Assembly: GCA_019636655.1 (NCBI GenBank)
Contig: JAHBXB010000001.1
Location: 496,001-560,000 of the forward strand
Length of the DNA: 64,000 nucleotides
Source of the DNA: Phycisphaeraceae bacterium
GTDB taxonomy: Bacteria > Planctomycetota > Phycisphaerae > Phycisphaerales > UBA1924
Direction of reading: 5' to 3'
The notes beneath the pieces were generated by a model. The model searched no databases, had not been told where the DNA came from, and worked only from the letters and a program-made list of their open reading frames with translations. The translations under genes were made by a program, and so were the position numbers. Shown here one piece after another: positions 20,109-27,635 of this stretch (positions within the stretch are counted from its first letter, which is position 1; each line of letters opens with the position of its first letter).

Positions 20109-20588
20109 ATGAGCCGCTTTGTCTTCGAGCTTGAATCCGTTCTTGCCCTGCGGCAGCGCCAGGAGAAGGACCGCCAGCGGGCAGTTGCCGCCATTCAGAG
20201 GGAACGGGTGGTGATCGAGGAGAAGATCTCGGGATACCAGCGGCAGATCGCCCTCGCCAAGCAAGCAATGCGGGCCCAGCTCTCATCCGCCAGCCCCGCG
20301 GGCGGTGTCGCGGTGAGCAGCGTGCGGATGGAGGCCGTCGCAGTCTCCCACATGATGGTGCTCGCGCAGCGGGCGGTGCTCGACCTCGCCGCCGTGCACG
20401 CCCGCCTCGAGGCCGCCCGGACCGAACTCGTCCGCGCCGCCACGGCGCGCAAGGCCGTAGAAACCCTGAGATCGCGTCGATTCGAACGCTGGAGGCTCGA
20501 ACAATCCCGCAAGGAGACCGCGGCCATGGACGAGATCGGCAGCCTCCTGACCGACCGCCGGCGCCGCGAAGCGGAGGGCACCACATGA
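20109..20588 (+). CDS. fliJ: Flagellar export protein FliJ
   Basis: Soluble coiled-coil stalk that links the FliI ring to FlhA, 159 residues. The N-terminus FVFELESVLALRQRQEKDRQ is characteristic, followed by a long alpha-helical hairpin rich in Arg, Ala and Glu. The C-terminal helix has RRFERWRLEQSRKETAAMDE. The sequence is low in family-diagnostic positions, but length, coiled-coil character and the place right after fliI make the call secure. It overlaps the next gene by four bases. Confidence 0.88.
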   Translation: MSRFVFELESVLALRQRQEKDRQRAVAAIQRERVVIEEKISGYQRQIALAKQAMRAQLSSASPAGGVAVSSVRMEAVAVSHMMVLAQRAVLDLAAVHARLEAARTELVRAATARKAVETLRSRRFERWRLEQSRKETAAMDEIGSLLTDRRRREAEGTT

Positions 20589-21283
20589 GAACGATCTGGT
20601 CCATCGTGTCCGTCCTCGCGGTCGCGAACCTGCTCGCGCTCGCCGGCTTCTTTGTCTGGCTCAAGACCTCGGGCCGCCTCAGCACGGAGCGCATCGAGCA
20701 GGTCCGCCTCGCCTTCCGCGAGACCCTCGAAGCCGAGCAGCAGAGGGCATCCATCGAGCTCGCCCAGAGGCTCGAGGAGGAATCGAAGCAGGCCGAGGCG
20801 GCGCGGCTGGCCTCGCCGCCGGAATCCGCGGCCACGGTCATCGACCGCAACGTCGAGGCGGAGCAGGTCCGGATGCAGCACATGCTGCTCCTCCAGCAGG
20901 AGCAGCGCACGCTCCGCGCCTCGCTCGAGCGAATGCGCACCGCCAACGAGGAAGAGCGTCTCCAACTCGCGAGGGAGAAGCAGGAGTTCGCGGAGTACCG
21001 CGCCCGTCTCGCCGATACGGAGGGCGCCGAGCAATTCAAGAAGGCCCTCGACACTCTCCAGGGCCAGAAGCCCAAGGACGCCAAAGACGTTCTCCAGTCG
21101 CTGTTGGCCGAGAGCAAGGCCGAGCAGGTGGTCTCCTACCTGAGCGCGATGGACGACCGCGCCAGGTCCCGAATCGTCGCAGAGTTCGTGAAAGTCGATC
21201 CTGCCGTGGCAGGCGACTTGCTGGAGCGGCTCAGAACCCGTGGCGTCGCTGTGCCGCCCGGGACTGAGATCGCTGGTCGATGA
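20585..21283 (+). CDS. MotE-like membrane-anchored coiled-coil protein
   Basis: 232 residues: an N-terminal TM helix (7-26, IVSVLAVANLLALAGFFVWL), a long Glu/Arg/Gln coiled coil (about 40-150), and a C-terminal MgtE_N-like module (KPKDAKDVLQSLLAESKAEQ; VVSYLSAMDDRARSRIVAEF). This resembles MotE/FliJ-downstream proteins of other clusters, which are membrane-bound and help anchor stators or the motor. It sits exactly between fliJ and fliK with overlaps on both sides, so a flagellar role is very likely. The precise role is inferred from position. Confidence 0.7.
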   Translation: MRTIWSIVSVLAVANLLALAGFFVWLKTSGRLSTERIEQVRLAFRETLEAEQQRASIELAQRLEEESKQAEAARLASPPESAATVIDRNVEAEQVRMQHMLLLQQEQRTLRASLERMRTANEEERLQLAREKQEFAEYRARLADTEGAEQFKKALDTLQGQKPKDAKDVLQSLLAESKAEQVVSYLSAMDDRARSRIVAEFVKVDPAVAGDLLERLRTRGVAVPPGTEIAGR

Positions 21284-23192: not shown

Positions 23193-23681
23193 ATGTTCCT
23201 CAATCCGCTCGGCCTGCTCGGAATCCTCGGCGGCATTGTCAGCGCCGCCACCAAGCCACACGCTCCCGCTGCCGATGGGCCACAGTTTGCCGACAAACTC
23301 GACGATGCACGAAGCGCCGACGTCGCATCCAACCTGCCGGTTCATGTCGACGCCAGCCTCGGCCTCAACCTCACCGGCGACCAGGTGGAACGACTCAGCA
23401 TCGCCGCCGACAAGGCCGAGGCCGCCGGCCTCCGCCGCGCCCTCGTGCACCTCGATGGCAAGGCGGTTGTTCTCGACGTCAAGTCACGCACAGTCCTCCG
23501 AGCCGCCGACCGCGAGGCGCCGCTGCCGGCCGACGTCGATGGCGTGGTCACCGCACCCGCCCTCGGCGAAACCGGCCAGGGCGTGATGCGAGTCCCCGGC
23601 GGCCTCGCCGCCAACACCTCGGTGAACGCGCTGCTGGAGCGCATGGAGCAGCAGACCAGCCAGCCGGCCATCGCGGCCTGA
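23193..23681 (+). CDS. Flagellar operon protein (TIGR02530-like)
   Basis: 162 residues. The middle, SLGLNLTGDQVERLSIAADK followed by AEAAGLRRALVHLDGKAVVL and DVKSRTVLRAAD, matches the pattern of the uncharacterised flagellar operon protein found between flgD and flgE in Firmicutes and spirochaetes (helix SxxDLxxLxxAxxKAxxKG, then strands ending in an NRTVxTA-like motif). An N-terminal hydrophobic segment (LGLLGILGGIVSAA) may be a membrane or export element. Its location exactly between flgD and flgE supports the call. Its molecular role is unknown. Confidence 0.7.
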   Translation: MFLNPLGLLGILGGIVSAATKPHAPAADGPQFADKLDDARSADVASNLPVHVDASLGLNLTGDQVERLSIAADKAEAAGLRRALVHLDGKAVVLDVKSRTVLRAADREAPLPADVDGVVTAPALGETGQGVMRVPGGLAANTSVNALLERMEQQTSQPAIAA

Positions 23682-23703: not shown

Positions 23704-25437
23704 ATGTCGTCCACCACCACCCTGTACACCGGGCTCTCCGGCCTCAACGCCAACAGCGCCTACCTCAACGTCATCGGCAACAACGTTGCCAACGTCAACA
23801 CCACCGCGTACAAGTCTAACCGCATGCTCTTTGCCAGCGCGTTCTCGCGCACCCTGAGCATCGGCACCCCGCCAAGCGCCGACACCGGCGGCTCCAACCC
23901 GACCCAGGTCGGCCTCGGCACCGTCATCGCCGGCACCCAGCGCAACTTCGGCGGCGGATCCCTCTCGCCCACCGGCGTCAAGACCGACCTCGCGATCGAA
24001 GGCGACGGCATGTTCGTCGTCGACCGCGGCGGATCAACGTACTTCACCCGCGCCGGCTCGTTCGGCCGCAACTCGAGCAACCAGCTCACCACGATCGGCG
24101 GCGACATCCTCCAGGGGTTCGGCGTCGATAGCGACTTCAACATCATCCCCGGCCAGCTCACCGACCTGTCCATCCCCCTCGGCTCCCTCGGCCCCGCGCA
24201 GGCCACCCGCAACGCCGACTTCGCCGGCAACCTCAACGCCGCCGGCACCATCGGGACCACCGGCACCAACATCGTCTTTGGCGCACTCGCCCTGATCACA
24301 GGCCCCATCGGCGGCCCCGGCGGCAACGCCCTCGACCCCGGCAGTCTCCTCGTCGACGTCGTCAGCAGCACCGCGCCGACCCAACTCCTCTTCTCCGCCG
24401 GTCAGTCCATCCTCATGAGCGGAGCCGAGAAGGGCGGCCAGACTCTCCCCGACGCCCGCCTCGATATCTCCGCGGCGACCACCGTCCAGAACTTCCTCGA
24501 CTTCCTCACCGGCGCCCTGGGCATCACCACCAGCGGTGGGGCCAACCCCAACGGCCAAACCCCCGGCGCCCAGCTCAACCCCGCCACCGGCGTCGTCACA
24601 GTCGTCGGCAACACCGGCACCGTCAATGACCTCGACCTCGCCACGTCGGACCTTCGCCTCATGAACGCCGATGGCAGCAGCGCCGGCCAACCCTTCACCA
24701 CCACCCGCCCCGTTCAGGCTGACGGCGAATCCGTCCGCACCACGTTCATCGTGTACAACTCCCTCGGCACACCGGTGAGCGTCGACGTCTCGATGGTCCT
24801 CGCCGGACGCTCCAACCAGGGCACGCAGTGGCAATACTCGATCGAATCCGAAGATGACACCGACGCCGACCTTCTCGTCGGCAGCGGGGTGCTCTCATTC
24901 GACACCTCCGGGCAGCTCATCGGGCCCAAGTCCGTCTCCGCGACGATCGACCAGAACAACACCGGCGCCCTTTCGCCCCTGACCTTCAACCTCAACTTTG
25001 ATTCCCCCGCCGGCCGCGTGACCGCCCTCGCGGATACCCCTTCGGCCCTCGCCTCGACCTACCAGGACGGTTTCCCTCCCGGCACCCTCAATGACTATGC
25101 CGTCGGTATCGACGGCATCATCACCGGAGCTTTCAGCAACGGTACCACCCGAACCCTCGGTCAGGTCGTCCTCGCCAAGTTCAACAACCCCGAGGGGCTC
25201 GTCGACGTCGGACAGAATCTCTACTCTGTCGGCCCAAACTCTGGCACCGCCGTGATCGCCGCGCCGACAACCCTCGGCACCGGCCGGATCGTCGGCGGCT
25301 CGCTGGAACTCTCCAACGTCGATCTCTCGCAGGAGTTCATCAACATGATCCAGGCCTCGACCGGCTTCAGCGCCTCGTCGAGGGTTATCACGACCACGGA
25401 TCAGTTGATGCAGCAACTCCTGGTTCTCGGCCGGTAG
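23704..25437 (+). CDS. flgE: Flagellar hook protein FlgE
   Basis: Structural subunit of the extracellular hook, 577 residues, longer than the roughly 400 of enteric FlgE because of an enlarged central domain. The N-terminus has LYTGLSGLNANSAYLNVIGN followed by NVANVNTTAYKSNR. The C-terminus shows GGSLELSNVDLSQEFINMIQ and the final heptad-rich helix. The N-terminus is not a Sec signal; export is by the flagellar apparatus. FliK and FlgD, upstream, control its assembly. A candidate sigma-28 promoter begins 31 bp past its stop. Confidence 0.95.
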   Translation: MSSTTTLYTGLSGLNANSAYLNVIGNNVANVNTTAYKSNRMLFASAFSRTLSIGTPPSADTGGSNPTQVGLGTVIAGTQRNFGGGSLSPTGVKTDLAIEGDGMFVVDRGGSTYFTRAGSFGRNSSNQLTTIGGDILQGFGVDSDFNIIPGQLTDLSIPLGSLGPAQATRNADFAGNLNAAGTIGTTGTNIVFGALALITGPIGGPGGNALDPGSLLVDVVSSTAPTQLLFSAGQSILMSGAEKGGQTLPDARLDISAATTVQNFLDFLTGALGITTSGGANPNGQTPGAQLNPATGVVTVVGNTGTVNDLDLATSDLRLMNADGSSAGQPFTTTRPVQADGESVRTTFIVYNSLGTPVSVDVSMVLAGRSNQGTQWQYSIESEDDTDADLLVGSGVLSFDTSGQLIGPKSVSATIDQNNTGALSPLTFNLNFDSPAGRVTALADTPSALASTYQDGFPPGTLNDYAVGIDGIITGAFSNGTTRTLGQVVLAKFNNPEGLVDVGQNLYSVGPNSGTAVIAAPTTLGTGRIVGGSLELSNVDLSQEFINMIQASTGFSASSRVITTTDQLMQQLLVLGR

Positions 25438-25467
25438 CCATCCGGAGCCCGCCCAGGCAGGACCGAA

Positions 25468-25495
25468 TAAAGGTGACCCCGCTTCGGGCCGATGA
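25468..25495 (+). promoter_or_regulatory. Candidate sigma-28 (FliA) promoter for the MotA-like gene
   Basis: TAAA at 25468-25471, 16 bases, then GCCGATGA at 25488-25495. The flagellar sigma-28 consensus is TAAA-N15-GCCGATAA, so seven of eight -10 bases match and the spacing is one base long. The predicted start is about 25502, 33 bases before the gene start. motA is a classic sigma-28 target, and fliA lies downstream in the same cluster. Confidence 0.5.
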
Positions 25496-25534
25496 CTCGC
25501 CCGTGGGCGATCGACCGCCCCGCGGAGCCCGAAC

Positions 25535-26233
25535 GTGAGCCTGGCCTCCTGGCTGTCCATGCCGATCGTCCCCTTCCTGGTCGCCGCCGCCGCGGTCCCC
25601 GCCGCGTTCCTGGCCGTCCGACTCCTCGGCCTCGACCGCCGCTGGCGTCGCGTTCTCATCCGCGAGAGCATCGACCTCTCCGCCACCATCGACCATCTCA
25701 CCCTCATCGCCCGCGCGGCAGAAAAGAACGGCGTTTCCGCACTCCAAGGCCACCTGGAGCGCCCCGCCGATCCGTTCCTTGCCAACGCGATCTCGCTGGT
25801 TTCCCGCGGTGCCACCCCCGCCCACCTGCGTGCCATCCTCGAGCACGACCTCGACACCCGCCTCGCCAGGCACGCGGGCATCAACCGCTGGCTCGCCGTC
25901 GCCGGACGAGTCCTTCCGGCGATTGGAGTCTGCGGCGTGGCGCTCGCCATCACCCTCCTGGTGTCATGGTCCTCCTCGCCCAGCGGTGTGACCACCCTCC
26001 ACGCCTCCTCGGTCTTGGTCATTGTCTTCTTCTCCCTCCTCGTTCTGGGGGTGAGAGTCCCGGACGCCGACTCGCTCGCCCACACCGAAGCACAGCGGGC
26101 CCTCGCCCACACGCTCGTCGTCGCCGCCATGACCGGAATTGCCTCCGGGGAGCACTCGGTCGCCCTCAACCAGCGACTCCGGGCGATGCTGACTCCCACG
26201 CCACCCCGTCCCGCAGACGCCGTCGCCGCGTAG
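25535..26233 (+). CDS. Divergent MotA-like flagellar stator protein
   Basis: 232 residues aligning by pattern with MotA: an N-terminal membrane helix, the cytoplasmic stretch RADPFLANAISLVSRGATPA-like region, LRAILEHDLDTRLARHAGIN, then two close TM helices (about 125-147 and 150-172) and the C-terminal TGIASGEHSVALNQRLRAML. MotA normally has four TM helices and a proline-rich, glycine-rich TM3. Here only about three helices are visible and the TM3 signature is eroded. fliL follows after 149 bp, with no motB between them. It may be a stator paralogue, a degenerate MotA or a repurposed protein. Confidence 0.6.
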   Translation: MSLASWLSMPIVPFLVAAAAVPAAFLAVRLLGLDRRWRRVLIRESIDLSATIDHLTLIARAAEKNGVSALQGHLERPADPFLANAISLVSRGATPAHLRAILEHDLDTRLARHAGINRWLAVAGRVLPAIGVCGVALAITLLVSWSSSPSGVTTLHASSVLVIVFFSLLVLGVRVPDADSLAHTEAQRALAHTLVVAAMTGIASGEHSVALNQRLRAMLTPTPPRPADAVAA

Positions 26234-26382
26234 CGCCAGTCCGAGAACTTCCCGCGGAGTTCCCCCCTCGCTACACACCGAACCAGGGGGGGGTGCCCGC
26301 TCGCTACGCTGTTGCCCGCCGCCTCCCACCGGTCGATGTTGCTCTGCCGCCCTTCCCCGCGGCAACCAAGGACGACACGACC

Positions 26383-26919
26383 ATGGCCGACAAGAAAAGC
26401 GAATCCAAGCCCCAGGCATCCACCACTGAGGAGGCCCCCAAGCGGGGCCTGCCGATCAAGACCATTGGCATCGTCGCGGGGCTCATGATCGCCGAAGCGG
26501 CCGGCGTCTACTTCCTGCTCGGCGCGACCAGCCCCGCCACGAGCGATGCCCAGGTCACCCACGGCCTGCACGACGACGAGTCCGAGAAAACCGCCGAAGT
26601 CCTTATCGTCGAGGACAAGTTCCAGAACCTCCAGACCGGCAAGGTCTGGCTCTGGGATGCCGCGATCTACGTCCAGGTCAAGCAAAAGAACGTCGAGCGC
26701 GTCGAAAAGGAACTCGAGCGCCGCAACGCCGAGATCAAGGAACAGGTCAGCCAGATCTTCAGCCGAGCCCAGCACGCTCAGCTCAAAGAACCCGACCGCC
26801 AGACCCTCAACCGCCAGCTTAATAACTACCTCCAGGATCTCTTCTCCTCCAAGTCCGATGAGCACCCCGTCATCGAGCGGCTGATCATCGCCCGCTGTCG
26901 CGGTTTCCCGGCCGAGTAG
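26383..26919 (+). CDS. fliL: Flagellar basal-body-associated protein FliL
   Basis: Single-pass inner-membrane protein that forms a ring around the stator and supports torque, 178 residues. Charged N-terminal tail, TM helix at about 27-48 ([20 protein letters not shown]), then a periplasmic stomatin-like domain ([40 protein letters not shown]). Start ATG 26383 gives the typical short cytoplasmic N-terminus. An eight-G run lies in the leader near 26286. In related clusters motB precedes and fliM follows fliL; neither is present here. Confidence 0.85.
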
Positions 26920-27128
26920 GCCGCTGCCTACGAATGGGCTCGGCACATTCTGCGCGTTTCTCGGCAGCCCTCGTCCCAAGTCGGCGAAATCTGCGGACGG
27001 TGCGTCCGGGCTGTCGATGTGACTCGCCCGGGGTGATGCGCCGTCGCGGGTCGTCCGCCGGCTCGGTCGCAGGCAGGATGCCCGCGTCGATGCCGGCTCG
27101 CGGCGGGCACCCTCGCCAGGGGCCACGG

Positions 27129-27635
27129 ATGGCCGATACGCAGCCAACACCCGACCCGGCTCCCCAGCCCGAGGTACACGAGACCGAAACCTCGCCCGCC
27201 GAGAACACGGCCGAGTCCATGGCCGCCGAAGCCCTCCGCGCCGCGCAGGACGCCGTCGCCGCGCTCAAGCAGCAGGTGCCGCAGGGCGGCGACGCCGATC
27301 CGCTCGGAATGGGATCCGGCGCCCCGACCTCACCGCTCGACTTCCCCGCCCTCTCGCCCAGCCTCGGCGCCGGTCGCGCCGAACCAATCGACCTGCTCGC
27401 CGACGTCAACCTCAACGTCAAGATCGAACTCGGCCGCACCCGGATGCTCGTCGAGGACGTCCTGCGACTCGGCGAAGGCTCAGTTGTTGAACTCGACAAG
27501 CTCGCCGGCGACCCCGTCGACGTCTATGTCAACGAGCGTCATGTTGCCCGTGGCGAGGTGCTTGTCCTCAACGACAACTTCTGCGTGCGCATCAACGAGA
27601 TCATTCCTCAGACGTCTGGTTCAACCAAGCAGTGA
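27129..27635 (+). CDS. fliN: Flagellar motor switch protein FliN
   Basis: C-ring component of 168 residues. The N-terminal 85 residues are Pro/Ala/Glu-rich and unlike the family. The SpoA domain (about 92-160) is canonical: [58 protein letters not shown] and [15 protein letters not shown] 27129 is the first good start after a 209-bp gap with poor coding content. Without FliM the switch would need FliM from another locus or a FliG-FliN arrangement; which applies cannot be told here. Confidence 0.93.

Follow-up and report, generated by a model that had tools for sequence, protein, structure and literature searches.

The flagellar cluster of this genome raises a simple question: does the organism lack two common motor genes, or do they stand elsewhere? 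The window, which is the whole stretch of 64,000 nucleotides that was analysed, corresponds to C1:496001-560000 of a 3.66 Mb genome in 8 contigs (98% complete). In the window, the hook protein gene flgE (23704..25437, plus strand) is followed by a lone MotA-like gene, called the orphan below, which encodes 232 amino acids from a GTG start (25535..26233, plus strand). An intergenic stretch of 149 bp (26234..26382, plus strand) comes next, at the place that motB occupies in relatives whose stator operon is intact, and then fliL (26383..26919, plus strand, 178 amino acids). A stretch of 209 bp (26920..27128, plus strand) separates fliL from the switch protein gene fliN (27129..27635, plus strand, 168 amino acids). 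The original prediction described these open reading frames and both gap sizes correctly, and neither gap has room for motB or fliM. It left two choices, separate motB and fliM loci or a stator and switch that differ from the textbook.

Location of fliM, motA and motB

The genes flgE and fliL served as the left and right anchors for comparing the locus among relatives. A flgE homologue was found in 162 of 163 family genomes. The FliL protein of the window scored 18 bits with Pfam FliL, under the cut-off of 24.6, and matched its relatives by phmmer at 1e-15 or better. FliN reached 85.7 bits with Pfam FliMN_C and passed TIGR02480 above its cut-off; a possible alternative in-frame start upstream, at 26934, would give a longer frame. 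Two other conserved ORFs of the window gave no Pfam match above cut-off. One (20585-21283) lies between fliJ and fliK in relatives and may be MotE, and the other, a small one (23193-23681), separates flgD from flgE in many relatives.

A profile search of the genome for fliM and motB homologues, proposed together with the original prediction, recovered canonical forms of both. The single FliM match was located at C1:586922-587497 on the minus strand (E 1.8e-63), about 27 kb beyond the window end on the same contig. The gene (L007:6719-7735, 338 amino acids) encodes a FliM domain (PF02154, 213 bits) and a C-terminal FliN-like domain (PF01052, 55 bits), and scored 289.9 with TIGR01397 against a cut-off of 219.6. 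It stands directly upstream of nusA and infB, which were both named by eye from their ORFs. At C1:586.6 kb fliM is solitary, distant from every other flagellar gene observed. FliM was present in 153 of the 163 family genomes and in 108 of the 112 best ones.

The expectation, for this lineage, of a fliM between fliL and fliN was not borne out. FliM was found in none of 95 cluster loci from the family and its neighbours, so its absence from the locus is ordinary for the lineage; the 209-bp stretch holds no fliM in the window or in relatives, and the distance between fliL and fliN was 194-695 nt in the 63 loci with both matches. In one locus (L136) fliL was found with no fliN match in the fetched stretch, and the cluster may be split there.

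The genome also had a single MotB_plug match, at C2:266032-266130, in a protein of 280 amino acids with plug (PF13677, 37 bits against 24) and OmpA (PF00691, 41.1 bits against 27.2) domains. There were three MotA_ExbB matches: the window gene, an ExbB-like protein on C4 (53 kb), which is a separate family member, and a full motA on C2 (266 kb), which directly adjoins motB and has the invariant motor residues. Canonical motA, motB and fliM elsewhere in the genome had been named in advance as the observation that would speak against an unusual motor, and because FliM and this motAB pair are present, this is what was found. The choice of separate loci is therefore the right one, with FliM on C1 and the motAB pair on C2, and the missing genes are explained and ordinary. 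The working motor should use this second motAB (type II, see below) and an ordinary FliM/FliN switch.

A stator and switch of another kind, in an organism without motB and fliM, is thus practically untenable: the two gaps do lack both genes, but each was found with strong family scores, fliM even on the contig of the window, and contamination by binning would be the sole escape. That motB was removed by an assembly error, or that the MotA-like ORF is wrong or arises by chance, is very unlikely too. The Pfam score of the ORF (MotA_ExbB, 24.1 bits) is barely above the cut-off of 22.9, and some of its shorter counterparts in relatives have no recognisable homology; but a profile HMM built from 23 type I MotAs, the cluster copies of relatives, matched it at 5.5e-26, and the same layout recurs in 26 loci of 13 genera in separately assembled genomes.

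The flgE-fliL interval in relatives and two types of stator

In the same family and order the gene order is fliG-H-I-J-x-fliK-flgD-x-flgE-motA-motB-fliL-fliN-fliO and onwards. Comparing the locus in relatives had also been suggested at the outset. The interval between flgE and fliL was readable in 77 of 88 family loci; the other 11 had no fliL match and received no gap class. An intact flgE-motA-motB-fliL order, with the type I stator, was kept in 23 of the 77 loci (20 genera). A lone MotA-like ORF of 224-276 amino acids without motB was found in 26 loci (13 genera), a mini ORF of 99-173 amino acids in 20 loci (9 genera), and nothing at all in eight loci (7 genera), where the gene has vanished and is thus dispensable. 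Together motB is gone in 54 of the 77 loci, window included, and its absence is a derived state. The minis (L094, L097, L099, L105, L115, L165-L169 and others) have two to four predicted hydrophobic helices, and several show by eye an aRxLrLDR-like motif after the first helix. A search of 39 flgE loci from other phyla (L176-L214) turned up no MotA inside those loci.

The motA on C2 was used as query against the 163 family genomes, and this search defined the second type of stator. It matched 154 genomes in two separate classes: 74 genomes matched at E 1.1e-81 or better (type II), and the next match was at 1.1e-57. MotB matches were bimodal as well, with 147 of the 163 genomes matching. The type I motAB is the cluster copy. 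Type II was present in 53 of 54 genomes without cluster motB and in only 2 of 23 intact genomes (Fisher p = 1.3e-15, relatedness ignored). The one exception among the former, G298, is 76% complete, and neither stator type was seen in it. Because the loss of motB tracks the second motAB in this way, the most fitting reading of the window gene is that it descends from a type I motA that was displaced.

The two intact genomes with type II, G219 (L108) and G235 (L147), carry both pairs and may be midway through the stator swap. Within the order, a further family (L056, L058) has type II motAB as well. Four flagellar proteins were combined in a tree, built by a quick method for the 61 of 94 loci with at least two of the four genes; it needs at least 4 changes of the intact or lost label, of which the starred branches force 2, so independent events may be few. 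The ancestor may have had both stators, with differing losses later, or type II may have been gained more than once.

Homology and lost motor parts of the orphan protein, and constraint in relatives

The orphan is homologous to positions 45-256 of the type I MotA HMM. When this HMM was extended through the orphans, at E<1e-3 it picked up 25 of the 26 orphans together with 8 of the 20 minis, while the best of 32 membrane-protein-like controls reached 0.16; with this the chance ORF is rejected. Among the 46 gap ORFs (orphans and minis), 13 could not be recognised as MotA by sequence, including 12 minis, and their MotA descent is taken from their place, their helices and their Ala-Ala end. The codon-position GC of the window ORF (0.72/0.52/0.86) is coding-like. 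With the NCBIfam MotA/PomA/MotP equivalogs the orphan reached 55.6 bits at best against a cut-off of 237, and the type I and type II MotAs of the family also stay under the NCBIfam cut-offs (185 and 249 bits at best), which gives this comparison little weight.

All PDB sequence matches of the orphan were MotA or PomA. Its structure was predicted, as had been recommended, from a three-row alignment and with moderate confidence (mean pLDDT 71.5, pTM 0.55), and all 18 PDB fold matches of the model at E<=0.001 were MotA/PomA chains; ExbB appeared at E 0.036 and worse. The model matches these chains without TM1. Hydrophobic helices lie at residues 10-28, 126-144 and 155-173, which makes three, as originally described, against the four expected in MotA. 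TM1 is the one that is lacking, and the stop-to-stop frame, of only 245 codons, leaves no room for it upstream. TM3, originally described as eroded, remains hydrophobic and retains its Pro, though its Thr and one Gly are gone; TM4 has lost more than TM3.

The threonine in TM3 and the threonine, tyrosine and asparagine in TM4 are invariant in types I and II, and the window protein has Val, Ile, Phe and Leu instead. The residue table covers 25 of the 26 orphans (L119 was left out). TM3 Thr is kept in 1 of them, TM4 Thr in 1, Tyr in 2 and Asn in 1; of three further residues that are likewise invariant in both types, the cytoplasmic Arg and Glu are kept in 1 each, and the Asn after the conserved Gly-Asp in 0. 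Structural Gly and Pro columns are kept in 18-20 of the 25. The TM4 tyrosine is probably the counterpart of E. coli Y217, which is reported as important (PMC10117855). Because invariant motor residues are lost, the orphan is expected neither to conduct ions nor to turn the rotor. The MotA fold, the homology and the place in a flagellar cluster would suit a working second stator, in which the orphan still conducts ions together with the type II MotB or an unrecognised B subunit. Since the invariant motor columns are lost, this was rejected; TM1 is absent as well, the only MotB_plug match of the genome adjoins the type II motA, and we regard such a stator as highly improbable.

The loss of motor parts also fits a plain relic, that is, a cluster motA that became a functionless pseudogene after the stator swap and is now at various stages of deletion. 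The series of sizes from orphan through mini to nothing, with complete loss in 8 of 77 loci, is what such decay would leave. In the most distant pairs of relatives dN/dS is near 0.4-1.1, with a maximum of 1.10, on alignments that are poor at this distance; at least some relaxation of selection is therefore real. The dN/dS of fliL is itself 0.33-0.57 in many distant pairs. Against a relic, the ten closest pairs, which were picked from 61 dN/dS pairs and of which two are minis, have dN/dS 0.13-0.31 in the gap ORF (binomial p between 1.5e-24 and 1.3e-5), and fliL in those pairs has 0.01-0.18. In all 9 measurable pairs, pN was lower than the divergence measured in the intergenic sequence next to the ORF. 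The gap ORF thus evolves faster than its neighbours but is under purifying selection in close pairs, and the gene of the window itself would be under the same selection as the ORFs of its relatives. The coding-like base composition of the window ORF argues against decay too, as do the open reading frames of all 46 picked gap ORFs and their common end, described next. A relic is therefore unlikely, more probable all the same than the readings rejected above.

The orphan of the window ends in VAA (last codons 26225-26233). An Ala-Ala end was found in 46 of 46 gap ORFs, which were picked without regard to their ends, in all 23 type I and all 6 type II MotAs, and in 27 of 29 class-level MotAs, partly from the same loci. 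The MotA at L008:8255-9238 is one of those in the lineage with this end. Other ORFs in the same gaps ended so in 5 of 287 cases. Outside the family it was seen in only 4 of 27 MotA loci from other Planctomycetota and in 1 of 5 MotAs from plasmid records, so the Ala-Ala end is a feature of the lineage and not of MotA at large. In the same clusters, where several control frames, those of fliP and fliR in particular, come from a mechanical choice and could be incorrect, the end occurred in flhB (22 of 52), fliN (10 of 57), fliO (8 of 56), flhA (3 of 6), the ORF before flgE (2 of 8) and fliI (1 of 8), and never in fliL (0 of 76), flgE (0 of 44) or motB (0 of 23). Because of the flhB and fliN counts it is weakened as a specific mark. 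As a conceivable protease tag the end has a parallel in the tmRNA tag of this genome (L215), which ends in ALAA; ends of that type are read by ClpX-type proteases.

Proposed history and comparison with known systems

These computations establish a displaced stator gene, the loss of MotB and of motor residues, and constraint in relatives. The original prediction was right that the MotA-like protein is divergent: its gene has no motB beside it and descends from a stator gene which relatives still keep intact at this place. The alternative that it offered, an unusual stator and switch, is not supported for the working motor, and an assembly error in the gaps, which it had allowed for, is unlikely. 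We consider it probable that a stator was replaced and its A subunit retained, leaving the orphan as a MotB-less, non-motor membrane protein. The ancestral operon would have been flgE-motA-motB-fliL-fliN, with fliM already elsewhere. In the lineage of the window, a second motAB at another locus (type II) would have taken over as stator, and the motB of the operon would have been lost. The old motA would then have lost TM1 and the residues of the ion path and rotor contact, while its reading frame, fold and C-terminal Ala-Ala would have stayed. The product would be a non-conducting MotA-like protein of the inner membrane, beside FliL, that has no MotB.

What such a protein does is a matter of more cautious suggestion. 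It is quite conceivable, if somewhat short of probable, that the old MotA was stripped stepwise into a new MotB-less class in which selection kept the membrane core and the Ala-Ala end, with TM1 going first and the rotor-binding cytoplasmic part following in some genera. The Ala-Ala end hardly varies in either of the working MotA types of the lineage and may therefore be a shared signal for docking or turnover, and the shortened protein might serve as a stator helper, placeholder or decoy that is recognised through, and reads, the same machinery. As a tentative guess, the orphan may be a small accessory membrane protein that works alongside FliL and the type II stator and helps, for instance, to assemble, place or stabilise the stator units.

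A literature search on orphan, degenerate or MotB-less MotA, or on Phycisphaerales flagella, found nothing on such a variant. The divergent MotA is apparently a real variant, undescribed as far as this search reaches. The apparent gap in the operon is a natural experiment, with near-exclusive stator types and a displaced A subunit that survives in graded stages. These stages show which parts of MotA can be lost while selection persists, and the genome set offers a test bed for MotA without MotB, with the Ala-Ala end, kept when almost all else is gone, as a concrete handle. It is also a warning for annotation, as the gene will be named MotA though the essentials of a stator are absent.

Compared with MotA/PomA (PF01618), the orphan shares the fold, TM3-TM4, the cytoplasmic helices and a type-I-like Ala-Ala end, but it differs in the absence of TM1, the motor residues and a motB partner. 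It belongs to the same Pfam family as the A subunits of the ExbB/TolQ/ZorA type, but its fold and sequence matches rank MotA/PomA first. FlgX of Campylobacter jejuni is described as a chaperone that shields stator units from FtsH (PMC6686046). By analogy, a membrane-associated helper of stators may be a role open to a non-motor MotA-like protein; the likeness is one of possible function alone, and no homology is claimed. Dual or exchanged stators have been reviewed (PMC9039648), and MotAB/MotPS of Bacillus subtilis is such a case (PMC5380961); according to PMC12505986, flagellar stators of both of its groups occur in Planctomycetota. The likeness to dual stators is that two motAB types occur in one family and occasionally in one genome. 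The difference is that here the two types nearly exclude each other, and the loser leaves behind an A subunit without MotB.
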